Source of the DNA: Flagellatimonas centrodinii
Lineage (GTDB): Bacteria > Pseudomonadota > Gammaproteobacteria > Nevskiales > Nevskiaceae
NCBI RefSeq assembly: GCF_016918765.2
Contig: NZ_CP092104.1
Span: 2,418,001 to 2,482,000, forward strand
DNA: 64,000 nt
Direction of reading: 5' to 3'
Shown: one piece after another, positions 21,555 to 24,470 of the stretch
How the letters are laid out: every line of letters starts with the position of its first letter
Position numbering within the stretch: position 1 is the stretch's first letter
Position numbers and translations under genes: made by a program
The notes under the pieces: generated by a model
The model's input: the letters and a program-made list of their open reading frames with translations, nothing else
Told to the model about the DNA's origin: nothing
Databases searched by the model: none

Positions 21555-22376
21555 ATGACCGTTGAAAACCGCAAGCCCGTCAACATTGCCGAGCTGCACC
21601 GCATGCGTGCGGATGCCGAGCCGATCGCCTGCCTGACCTGCTACGACGCCAGTTTCGCACTGATCGAAGACCGCGCCGGGATCGATCTGGTGCTGATCGG
21701 TGATTCGCTGGGGATGGTCCTGCAGGGGCACGCCACCACCACGGCGGTGACGGTAGACGACATTGCGTATCACAGTCGTTGCGTGGCGCCACATCTACAG
21801 CGGGCATTTCTGGTGGCCGATCTGCCATTTCTGTCGTATGCCACGCTCGAGCGGGCTCTCGACGCCAGCCAGCGCCTGATGCAGCAGGGCGGCGCCAAGA
21901 TGGTGAAGCTGGAGGGCGGGCGCGAGCAGGCTGCCATCGTCGAGTACCTGGCGGTTCGGGGCGTTCCGGTATGCGCGCACCTCGGACTGCGGCCCCAGTT
22001 CATTCACAAGATGGGGACTTTCAAGGTGCAGGGTCGGGACGAGGCCGACGCCGAGGTGATGCTGCAGGATGCCCGTATCCTCGCCGAGGCCGGTGCTGAC
22101 CTGTTGTTGGTGGAATGTGTCCCTGCGGCGCTCGGGGCGCGATTGGCAGCGGCCTCGCCGGTCCCGGTGATCGGGATTGGCGCCGGTCCCGATGTCCACG
22201 GCCAGATCCTGGTGCTACACGACCTGCTGAATATTTCGCCGATGGTGACGCTGGGGCGTCGACCACGGTTCGCCAAGCACTACATGGATGACGGGCGCGA
22301 CATCGAGGGCGCGATCCGCGCCTATGTCGAAGAAGTGAAACAGCGCGTCTACCCCGCGCCCGAGCACTGTTTCTAG
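21555..22376 (+). CDS. panB: 3-methyl-2-oxobutanoate hydroxymethyltransferase
   Basis: PanB makes ketopantoate from alpha-ketoisovalerate and 5,10-methylene-tetrahydrofolate, the first step of pantothenate synthesis. The 273-residue protein has the conserved CLTCYDASFA, VLIGDSLGMVLQGH, KLEGG and IGIGAG motifs. A TATAGC element about 35 nt upstream and GGAG before the ATG suggest its own promoter. It is followed after 3 nt by panC. Confidence 0.97.
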   Translation: MTVENRKPVNIAELHRMRADAEPIACLTCYDASFALIEDRAGIDLVLIGDSLGMVLQGHATTTAVTVDDIAYHSRCVAPHLQRAFLVADLPFLSYATLERALDASQRLMQQGGAKMVKLEGGREQAAIVEYLAVRGVPVCAHLGLRPQFIHKMGTFKVQGRDEADAEVMLQDARILAEAGADLLLVECVPAALGARLAAASPVPVIGIGAGPDVHGQILVLHDLLNISPMVTLGRRPRFAKHYMDDGRDIEGAIRAYVEEVKQRVYPAPEHCF

Positions 22377-22379
22377 GCC

Positions 22380-23234
22380 ATGGAGGTCATTCACGCCGTC
22401 AGCGCGCTGCGGGCCCAGGTCAACCAATGGCGTCGGCAACACCAGCGTGTGGCCCTGGTGCCGACCATGGGCAACCTGCACGAGGGGCACTTGCAGCTGG
22501 TCGATGTGGCGCGACAGCAGGCGGATCGGGTGCTGGTGAGCGTGTTCGTCAACCCGCTGCAATTCGGTCCCGGCGAAGACTTCGATCGCTATCCGCGCAC
22601 GCTGGCCGCCGATACCGAGGCTCTGATCATGGCTGGCGCGGACCTGCTGTATGCACCGACCTTACGTGAGATGTACCCCCGCGGCGCAGCGCCAGTGACG
22701 CAGGTCTGCGTGCCGGAGATCACGGAAACGCTGGAGGGCGCGCATCGGCCGGGTCATTTTGACGGTGTCACCACCGTGGTCAGTCTGCTGTTTCATCAGG
22801 TACAGCCCGACGTGGCCTGTTTCGGGCAGAAGGATTACCAGCAACTGGCGGTGGTGCGGCGCATGGTTGCCGACCAACAGATGCCGGTGACCATCGTCGG
22901 CGTGCCGACTTGCCGGGCCGAGGACGGACTGGCGCTGTCATCCCGCAATCAGTACCTGTCGCCGCAGGCGCGTGCGCGCGCTCCGGGCCTCAAGCAGGTG
23001 CTGGATCGGGTGGCAGCACAGCTGCGCGGGGGGCGACGGGACTACCCGGCGATCGAGACGGAGGCGCTTGCCGCGCTGGTCGAGGGTGGGTTCGCCCCCC
23101 AGTATCTGGCGATTCGCGGGCCGGACCTGGAGACGCCGGCCGTCGCGGCCCGGGCCTGGGTGGTCCTGGTGGCGGCGGTGCTTGATGGCACCCGATTGAT
23201 CGACAACCTCGAAGTCGCGGTTGATATGGGGTAA
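22380..23234 (+). CDS. panC: Pantothenate synthetase
   Basis: PanC condenses pantoate with beta-alanine using ATP. The 284-residue protein has the nucleotidyl-transferase motifs PTMGNLHEGH (HxGH) and, later, FGQKDYQQL and LSSRNQYLSP. It lies 3 nt after panB and is surely co-transcribed. beta-Alanine comes from PanD, encoded next after a 192-nt gap that contains a promoter and structured leader. Confidence 0.97.
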   Translation: MEVIHAVSALRAQVNQWRRQHQRVALVPTMGNLHEGHLQLVDVARQQADRVLVSVFVNPLQFGPGEDFDRYPRTLAADTEALIMAGADLLYAPTLREMYPRGAAPVTQVCVPEITETLEGAHRPGHFDGVTTVVSLLFHQVQPDVACFGQKDYQQLAVVRRMVADQQMPVTIVGVPTCRAEDGLALSSRNQYLSPQARARAPGLKQVLDRVAAQLRGGRRDYPAIETEALAALVEGGFAPQYLAIRGPDLETPAVAARAWVVLVAAVLDGTRLIDNLEVAVDMG

Positions 23235-23252
23235 CACCGATGTCAGGACGGT

Positions 23253-23280
23253 TTGCGCGGGCGACCGAATGTTTTACACT
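23253..23280 (+). promoter_or_regulatory. Promoter of panD
   Basis: A -35-like TTGCGC (23253-23258) and -10-like TACACT (23275-23280) are 16 nt apart. Transcription from here would begin near 23287 and give a leader of about 140 nt before panD. Confidence 0.5.
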
Positions 23281-23320
23281 CCCGCCTCTTGCGGAGTACC
23301 GTGAGTTGCCTCGCGGAAAC

Positions 23321-23401
23321 GGGTGCATGTCTTAGTGGGCCACCCTGAATCGAAACTGCCGCGTACGCTGGGTGCATGTCTTAGTGGGCCACCCCGTACG
23401 C
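23321..23401 (+). ncRNA. Structured panD leader with two identical 25-nt repeats
   Basis: Two exact 25-nt copies lie at 23321-23345 and 23370-23394, 49 nt apart, inside the predicted panD 5' leader. Each begins GGGTG and ends CACCC, which pair around a 15-nt loop (CATGTCTTAGTGGGC). The second copy is extended by GCGTACG (23361-23367) pairing with CGTACGC (23395-23401), with a 2-nt bulge on the 5' side, giving a 12-bp hairpin. The tandem layout upstream of a pan gene recalls the pan RNA motif described upstream of panB, panC and panD genes in other phyla. Identity with that motif is inference. Confidence 0.6.
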
Positions 23402-23426
23402 AACCCGATAGACGAGGTTCCCTGCC

Positions 23427-23810
23427 ATGCAATTGAACATGCTCAAGTGCAAGTTGCATCGTGCCCGTGTGACCCATGCCGAGCTGGATTACGACGGTTC
23501 CTGCGCCATCGACGGCAAGCTGCTCGATCTCGCCGGTATCCTCGAGTTCGAACAGATCGACATCTACAACATCACCAATGGCGAACGGTTTACCACCTAC
23601 GCCATTCGGGCGGATGAAGGTTCGGGCGTCATCTCGGTCAACGGGGCGGCGGCACACAAGGCGCGGGTTGGTGACCGCGTGATCATTGCCGCGTTTGCCA
23701 CGATGGACGAGGCATCCGCCCGTGGTTACAAGCCACGACTGGTGTATTGCACCGACGAAAATCGGGTGGCCCGCACGGCCAACACGATTCCGGTGCAGAA
23801 GGCCGCCTGA
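23427..23810 (+). CDS. panD: Aspartate 1-decarboxylase
   Basis: PanD decarboxylates aspartate to beta-alanine for PanC. The 127-residue proenzyme has the self-cleavage site Gly24-Ser25 (YDGSC) that creates the pyruvoyl group, and the conserved [14 protein letters not shown] segment. It follows panBC but has its own predicted promoter and structured leader, so it may be controlled separately. A hairpin with a T-tract lies 10 nt after the stop. Confidence 0.98.
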
Positions 23811-23852: not shown

Positions 23853-24470
23853 ATGGCCACGATCCAACATCATTTCGCCACTCCGATCTATCAGGCGCCG
23901 CTGATCACCCGGGGGCGCCCGGCGTTCAATGCCGATCTGGCTGAAGAGTGCGAGAAGATTAGGGCCTTCGACGTTCCCGGACAGCGCTGGTCCGAGGCCT
24001 TCTACCCCGGGGGATATACCAGCTACGGGTCGATGGACCGCCTGCATCGGTTCTCATCAACCTTCGATCTCCTGCGCCAGCGGATTGATCGTCATGTGCG
24101 ACGTTTCGCCGAGACCCTGGAATGGTCGCTGGATCACGGCGAGCTGACGATGACCGACTGCTGGATCAATCTGATGCCACGCGGCTGCGCGCACAGCTTT
24201 CATCTGCATCCGCAAGCGGTGATCAGTGGGACCTATTACGTGCAGACCCCCCCGGGCGCCAGTCCGTTGAAGTTCGAAGACCCTCGGCTGAGCCGCATGA
24301 TGGCGTCACCGCCGCGGCGTGCCGACGCGCGTCAGACCGCCCATGTCAGCGTCAAGGCGCGTGCCGGGCAGGTGATCCTGTTCGAAAGCTGGCTTCGCCA
24401 TGAGGTGCCCGCGAGCCGGATCGATGCACTGCGAATTAGCGTCAGTTTCAACTACCACCTGATCCGTTAG
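23853..24470 (+). CDS. 2-oxoglutarate/Fe(II)-dependent oxygenase family protein
   Basis: A 205-residue protein matching the putative 2OG-Fe(II) oxygenase family that often sits in housekeeping regions (TIGR02466-like from memory). The core double-stranded beta-helix is visible as DCWINLMPRGCAHSFHLHP, then GTYYVQTPPGASPLKFEDPR. The distal part GQVILFESWLRHEVPA contains the second iron-binding His, with Arg in LRISVSFNY as the likely 2OG ligand. Substrate unknown. Its ATG abuts the panD terminator with no ribosome-binding site in between, so its expression needs an internal start, read-through coupling or a different start codon. Confidence 0.75.
   Translation: MATIQHHFATPIYQAPLITRGRPAFNADLAEECEKIRAFDVPGQRWSEAFYPGGYTSYGSMDRLHRFSSTFDLLRQRIDRHVRRFAETLEWSLDHGELTMTDCWINLMPRGCAHSFHLHPQAVISGTYYVQTPPGASPLKFEDPRLSRMMASPPRRADARQTAHVSVKARAGQVILFESWLRHEVPASRIDALRISVSFNYHLIR

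Follow-up and report, generated by a model that had tools for sequence, protein, structure and literature searches.

In the genome of Flagellatimonas centrodinii (Pseudomonadota; Nevskiales) we analysed a pair of short tandem hairpins in front of panD, the gene for aspartate 1-decarboxylase. The stretch studied, here called the window, comprises 64,000 nt of contig NZ_CP092104.1 (positions 2,418,001 to 2,482,000 of the forward strand), and all coordinates given below count from its first letter. The element lies in the intergenic region between the end of panC at 23234 and the start of panD at 23427, in the following setting:

21555-22376, forward strand: panB (TIGR00222 family model)
22380-23234: panC (confirmed by family model)
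23252-23257, forward strand: possible -35 element TTTGCG, read from the sequence
23275-23280, forward strand: -10-like box TACACT of a probable panD promoter, read from the sequence
23299-23316, forward strand: 5' hairpin P0 (CCGTGAG-TTGC-CTCGCGG), predicted by folding and variable in sequence across species
23321-23345, forward strand: conserved hairpin copy 1 (P1), with a 5-bp GGGYG/CRCCC stem, a 3-nt bulge YAU, an inner helix and the loop UNKU
23370-23394, forward strand: conserved hairpin copy 2 (P2)
23361-23401, forward strand: extended outer stem enclosing P2, with 23361-23367 paired to 23395-23401 and a bulge CT at 23368-23369
23414-23417, forward strand: Shine-Dalgarno-like (SD) GAGG, 9 nt 5' of the panD start, read from the sequence
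23427-23810, forward strand: panD, the proposed controlled gene (TIGR00223, E 9.4e-49)
23853-24470, forward strand: gene for a TIGR02466 family protein (family model)

Both copies of the 25-nt sequence GGGTGCATGTCTTAGTGGGCCACCC in the window are 100% identical and follow each other at a spacing of 49 nt, as had been stated in a preliminary description made from the sequence alone. Its further observation that copy 2 is extended to a bulged hairpin of 12 bp was likewise confirmed, with the outer arms GCGTACG and CGTACGC joining the core stem across the 2-nt bulge. The extended copy 2 folds with -21.7 kcal/mol (z -2.79), and copy 1 alone has an unremarkable fold energy (z -0.07). A search of the 3.6-Mb genome for the 25-mer with up to three mismatches found two forward and no reverse occurrences, which are the window pair itself.

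In a DNA search of 146 genomes, comprising the window's own genome and its relatives, the panD leader could be aligned throughout the window's family, and some genomes gave additional matches about 2 kb upstream of it. From 30 loci (L003-L032), which represent a part of the carriers, we compiled alignments of 29 leaders (A1) and of 50 distinct copies (A2). A covariance model for the single hairpin (R1), of the kind the preliminary description had called for, was built from 50 distinct copies and found, at E <= 0.001, 145 copies, distributed over 57 of 85 genomes from the order. Of these carriers, 56 belong to the window's family, represented by 58 genomes, and one (G061) to another family; no match was obtained in 26 genomes belonging to the order's four other families. 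Two members of the window's family lack the element (G026 and G045, 90 and 91% complete), and neither has a detectable panD. In the class and phylum samples the model found nothing further: at E <= 1e-4 with strict filters, the only matching genome among 369 sampled from the class, and again among 398 sampled from the phylum, was the window's own, with none in the other 368 and 397 genomes of these overlapping samples.

Rather than being missing from relatives or scattered over unrelated loci, all 145 R1 matches precede panD or panB, as judged by comparing their positions by hand with the fetched loci. Matches before panB occurred in 18 genomes, nine in genus g3 and nine in genus g11. The panB copy is thus present in part of the family, and a genome search found none in the window genome. 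Relaxing the threshold to E <= 0.3 in 21 genomes added the known weak second copies in G018 and G044. Isolated weak matches in G015, G002 and G022 (one each, E 0.02-0.19) were rejected as a third genomic site, being single, unlike pan leaders by eye and away from pan genes; G002 belongs to the same genus as the window genome. A pattern search for the tandem arrangement in named genomes retrieved 44 stretches, 43 of them adjoining panD or panB and mostly labelled Nevskia, Solimonas, Hydrocarboniphaga, Sinimarinibacterium, Stagnimonas, Panacagrimonas, Fontimonas, Polycyclovorans, Algiphilus or unclassified relatives. The remaining stretch (L105:1-8000, labelled Proteobacteria bacterium Co191P4bin16) matches the core pattern only; it has neither hairpin arms nor pan genes and was treated as a tandem repeat of another kind. 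Four pan loci of the window's family are filed under the labels Rhodospirillales, Verrucomicrobia and Lysobacteraceae (L084, L092, L096, L106), labels which look wrong.

For the comparison of leaders, identical sequences were counted once, leaving 51 panD and 17 panB leaders; one panD leader with a single scored copy (L118) and one panB leader with an extra loop base (L063) were left out of the copy-2 statistics, G015 is represented solely by locus L160, which is not counted among the 17 panB leaders, and in L106 the first copy is cut by the contig end. The consensus of 57 unique ungapped copies reads GGGYG-YAU-GYCU-UNKU-GGGC-CRCCC, with A in 54 and U in 56 of them at the last two bulge positions. 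Pair 4/22 covaries: C-G in 23 copies, U-A in 16, U-G in 15, C-A in one and other combinations in two. The excess of U-G over C-A (15 to 1, two-sided binomial p 0.0005, from related sequences whose rows are not independent) indicates an RNA of the forward strand, since T-G and C-A would be equivalent in a double-stranded site. In A2, 96.7% of the cells in paired columns were paired, and the covariation score of 0.178 was reached by none of 500 shuffled alignments (mean 0.092) and exceeded that of all slid versions (at most 0.111). The inner helix is nearly invariant, its support consisting only of U-to-C changes opposite G and one longer loop, the loop being one base longer in copy 2 of L063 and L123.

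Swap tests support the outer stem of P2. When flanks were swapped between species on a neutral scaffold, the own flanks of 46 panD leaders folded with a mean of -19.3 kcal/mol against -16.4 kcal/mol for swapped ones (z -7.7, 0 of 200 swaps as good), and 15 panB leaders behaved in the same way (z -4.3, 0 of 200). This stem therefore covaries without conservation of its sequence. A duplex version of the test gave z -3.1 for panD leaders (1 of 1000) and a weak z -0.8 for panB leaders, the folded version being strong for both. Copy 1 has no such outer stem, as its own flanks paired no better than swapped ones (z +2.4 and +3.2), and its end is fixed as GGG/CCC in 50 of 50 panD leaders. On this comparison the two copies differ in build: the end of copy 1 is fixed, and copy 2 has a clamp of free sequence and often a mismatch or bulge at the outer two pairs of its core.

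The tandem arrangement itself is highly regular. Two scored copies are present in 50 of the 51 unique panD leaders, L118 having a second copy with insertions, and the two hairpins are spaced by 46-53 nt in all 50 two-copy leaders. Exact identity of the copies and of their loop, from the latter of which sequence-specific recognition had been deduced for the window, turned out not to be general, because the copies are identical in only 3 and the 15-nt loop in only 11 of 50 unique panD leaders. The loop varies at two positions (AG, GG, TT, AT, TG, CG, AA). Taken together, the sequence comparison indicates that the element is a real conserved RNA of the forward strand whose structure is kept across the family, and the earlier suggestion of a cis-regulatory RNA with tandem hairpins, conserved bulge and loop, tied to pantothenate genes, is thereby supported.

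The position of the element relative to start codons is also conserved. From the start of copy 2 to the panD AUG there are 49-58 nt in 49 of 51 unique leaders; the distance is 65 nt in L079, and in L118 only copy 1 was scored. The modelled outer stem of P2 ends at a median of 22 nt 5' of the AUG, and purine-rich runs stand at the place equivalent to the SD in most relatives compared. By regular expression, 46 of the 51 unique panD leaders and all 17 panB leaders have a TANNNT-type box at the same place 5' of copy 1. The promoter that had been predicted 5' of the repeats is matched by a -10-like box in the window, and a promoter scan at the window locus gave nothing above threshold.

The panB leaders of genus g3, mostly labelled Nevskia, carry a panD-like start after copy 2 (ATGCAA in seven, ATGCAG and GTGCAA in one each). 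It opens an open reading frame (ORF) of 22-38 codons with little conserved protein sequence past the first residues, which begins 37-53 nt downstream of the first base of copy 2 (49-53 nt in eight of nine). In all nine genomes the stop codon of this ORF shares bases with the start codon of panB, as ATGA or GTGA. The search rule, ATG or GTG followed by CA within the interval, was defined after the pattern had been noticed; L160 (G015), fetched afterwards, fits it. The simplest reading of these sequences would be that the panD leader was copied in front of panB together with its start codon and that translational coupling gives access to panB. The kept spacing from copy 2 to the start of an ORF that overlaps panB points to control of translation initiation, and access to panB through a coupled leader ORF would make sense if the leader acts at this step. 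This might indicate a route by which a regulatory leader is copied to a second pathway gene along with its start codon.

Based on these comparisons we propose that the untranslated panD mRNA leader is probably a cis-regulatory RNA that acts at translation initiation of panD, and of panB in some relatives. The features which suggest this are a forward-strand RNA with two near-fixed recognition hairpins, the second of them clamped shortly 5' of the ribosome binding site, that is found at panB and panD only. Our confidence here concerns an RNA acting in cis at translation initiation; the nature of its partner is graded separately below. In the proposed mechanism one partner would read both hairpins jointly and report plentiful pantothenate or coenzyme A (CoA). 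The bound partner would then keep the 30S subunit off the start site beside P2, either by its bulk, if it is a protein, or by three-dimensional docking of the hairpins, if it is a metabolite. Both entry steps would be lowered together, PanB supplying pantoate and PanD supplying beta-alanine. Beta-alanine or ketoisovalerate is less likely as the signal because both branches carry the element. Type III pantothenate kinase escapes feedback by CoA, and control at panB and panD would be useful for this reason; this kinase (CoaX, PF03309) is encoded in 73 of the 85 genomes, in carriers and non-carriers alike, and does not separate them.

Several observations weigh against this proposal. In the thermodynamic model the mean probability of the SD being unpaired was 0.51 when the hairpins were forced and 0.50 when they were forbidden, forcing them giving the higher value in only 20 of 50 leaders, and without constraints the hairpins formed with mean probabilities of only 0.40 (P1) and 0.62 (P2). 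The fold energy of the whole window leader is unremarkable (z -0.23). Two of the five structure measures on A2 are weak, namely pairs changed on both sides (3 versus 1.1 in shuffles, 15 of 500 as high) and further pair types (6 versus 5.2, 177 of 500 as high), and RNAalifold reported double changes in no more than 2 of 16 pairs. At the outer end of the copy-2 core, the last two pairs are often non-standard (37 and 45 of 50 panD leaders, 9 and 10 of 16 panB leaders). In the nine g11 panB leaders the distance from the start of copy 2 to panB is 75-105 nt, which the model leaves unexplained, and no common leader ORF was found in them, the ORF of L085 ending 5 nt before panB.

Some other modes of action were rejected. 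The thermodynamic model, with its unchanged SD accessibility, gave no sign of masking of the SD by the hairpins, the 5' segment paired with the SD region not clearly better than swapped segments did (z -0.9, 170 of 1000), and intrinsic termination at the window copy lacks a terminator-like site nearby. A switch in which CGCGG pairs with CCGCG had also been suggested; this pairing is possible in the window and does not covary between species (5' segment against linker, z +0.7, 748 of 1000 swaps as good). Hairpin 1 paired with the SD region slightly better than swapped segments did in panD leaders (z -1.8, 24 of 1000), with the reverse in panB leaders (z +1.8). Overall the segment swap tests revealed no clear alternative pairing besides the outer stem of P2.

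Of the two readings offered earlier, that of a new element sensing pantothenate-pathway metabolites still stands, and both a protein and a metabolite are candidates for the partner. We tentatively rank first a dimeric RNA-binding protein, either a dedicated regulator or PanB or PanD itself, which would bind both hairpins with one subunit on each. The bulge-plus-loop hairpins that are kept paired at a spacing of 46-53 nt in every two-copy panD leader are consistent with such a site, and the same idea has been put forward, in the part of the paper available to us, for the pan motif (PMC2864571); against it, no candidate protein can be named, no gene-profile search for one having been made.

Ranked below it, and in our view less likely, is a metabolite riboswitch in which the hairpins dock and directly bind pantothenate, CoA or a precursor in the manner of guanidine-II, the docked form blocking translation. 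The tandem hairpins, whose bulge and loop hardly vary and which are attached only to the biosynthesis genes of one vitamin, would suit this explanation, and the GGCC common to both hairpins could in principle pair between them. The accessible text on guanidine-II provides a precedent of two small hairpins that make cooperative pockets (PMC9481103). On the other hand, a 25-nt hairpin is small for a ligand of the size of CoA, no alternative fold that sequesters the SD was seen, and the distribution is narrow. That the two docking 25-nt hairpins form a natural sensor of pantothenate or CoA which shuts off translation of panB and panD appears, from sequence, a less probable proposition still. If true, it would close the gap left by the lack of a CoA-family riboswitch, with an aptamer among the smallest known: CoA is listed among the conspicuously missing riboswitch ligands in what we could consult of two 2022 reviews (PMC9971707, PMC10043782), and a literature search for a pantothenate or CoA riboswitch returned no title reporting one.

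The remaining explanations fare considerably worse. Tandem repeats near a promoter could be operators, that is, double-stranded sites for a transcription factor, and copy 1 of the window is not unusually stable as RNA; a DNA site would nevertheless not favour U-G over C-A 15 to 1 at the varying pair, its extended stem would not be expected to covary without sequence conservation, and neither the loop-length variant nor the kept distance to start codons fits it, so that we consider an operator very improbable. The long, nearly invariant stretch within the hairpin could instead be the place where a small regulatory RNA binds by complementarity to the conserved 15-nt loop. This too has little to recommend it, since two loop positions vary while the paired stem is kept and the genome holds no further or antisense 25-mer at three mismatches, a search in which the loop alone was not used. 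A gammaproteobacterial variant that has diverged from the Rfam pan motif, as had been suspected from the same target genes and the tandem bulged hairpins, is just as improbable, because RF01749 was not found in the own genome or in the genomes of the order, the bulge pattern differs and R1 shows no intermediates in the class and phylum samples.

Some further observations concern the surroundings of the element. The segment 5' of copy 1, which contains P0 in the window, folds better than its dinucleotide shuffles in panD leaders (mean z -2.11 over 51, 43 below -1) and in panB leaders (mean z -1.58, n=17, 13 below -1). In the panD leaders L064, L091 and L095 the 5' hairpin at times reads TGTGACC...TCACA or near, downstream of the -10 box, with unrelated sequence in other species; this resembles a CRP/FNR-type site. 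Five g11 panB leaders (L064, L077, L091, L093, L102) appear by eye to carry a further stem (CGAAAACG.../...CGTTTTCC-like) 3' of copy 2 and just 5' of a GGGAG ribosome site, which sets them apart from the g3 leaders and their overlapping ORF. Three relatives from another family of the order (L138, L142, L144) do not have the element and share a different panD leader, conserved in the panC-panD intergenic region of about 170 nt. It has an arm pair of the type GGCTGGTGCGGGG ... CACCAG/GCGCCAG and the shared start region GGCGAGGTTCGCCCTATGAAC, and is possibly another leader RNA.

Upstream of the pan genes the window encodes folK and a kinase-like gene for which no family model scored above its cut-off. 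Among unique loci with both panD and panB, the panB copy of the element was present in 16 of 35 without a kinase gene detected beside panB and in 0 of 16 with it; among carriers of the element the figures are 16 of 30 without and 0 of 9 with an adjacent kinase gene. Six loci (L073, L097, L101, L110, L124, L128), some of which stand for one and the same contig under two identifiers, contain about 1.6 kb of extra sequence between panB and panC. The TIGR02466 gene stands immediately 3' of panD in the window, an adjacency kept in many relatives and not in all.

Searches of known RNA families and of the literature gave no counterpart of the element. The leader (23200-23480) had no Rfam match at E <= 10, and at gathering thresholds Rfam 15 matched a single tRNA, and not the element, in the pan loci of 14 relatives. 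RF01749 matched none of the order's 85 genomes at E <= 0.1 with strict filters and was not found in the own genome at E <= 1, in a search which responded in 2 of 14 control genomes (Bacillus subtilis and Bacteroides ihuae) and exceeded the cut-off in one. Open-licence papers, supplements excluded, contained no description of the element, and a word search within motif-discovery papers from 2019, 2021 and 2024 met no mention of panB, panD or pantothenate.

Among known systems, the PyrR-binding hairpins of pyr operons are repeated short bulged hairpins through which a protein senses the product of the pathway, acting by transcription attenuation. The window copy differs in that no terminator-like site was found there and in a position tied to start codons. 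The guanidine-II riboswitch shares the side-by-side placement of two similar small hairpins with conserved loops, as far as its description could be consulted (PMC9481103); its target genes are different, and the element has no Rfam match and is followed by pan genes only.

Closest is the pan motif (RF01749; Weinberg et al. 2010, PMC2864571), the only RNA element for pantothenate genes encountered in the literature searched, which resembles the element in its target genes, as it precedes panB, panC or aspartate decarboxylase operons, and in its mostly tandem arrangement. According to the part of that paper available to us, it has two bulged As, a dimeric protein-binding motif was suggested and no partner had been identified. 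In contrast, the element has a single 3-nt bulge YAU and no second conserved bulged A over 57 unique copies, and it is asymmetric, in that only copy 2 is clamped by an outer stem, of variable sequence, and copy 1 stands bare. With no match to RF01749 and without the two bulged As, membership was rejected, and on these tests the element appears to resemble the pan motif in use and arrangement and not to be a member. It would represent a second tandem hairpin for these genes, of a different build and from a different group of bacteria, and a small, well-defined RNA for which clear mutants can be designed, for example in Solimonas or Nevskia.
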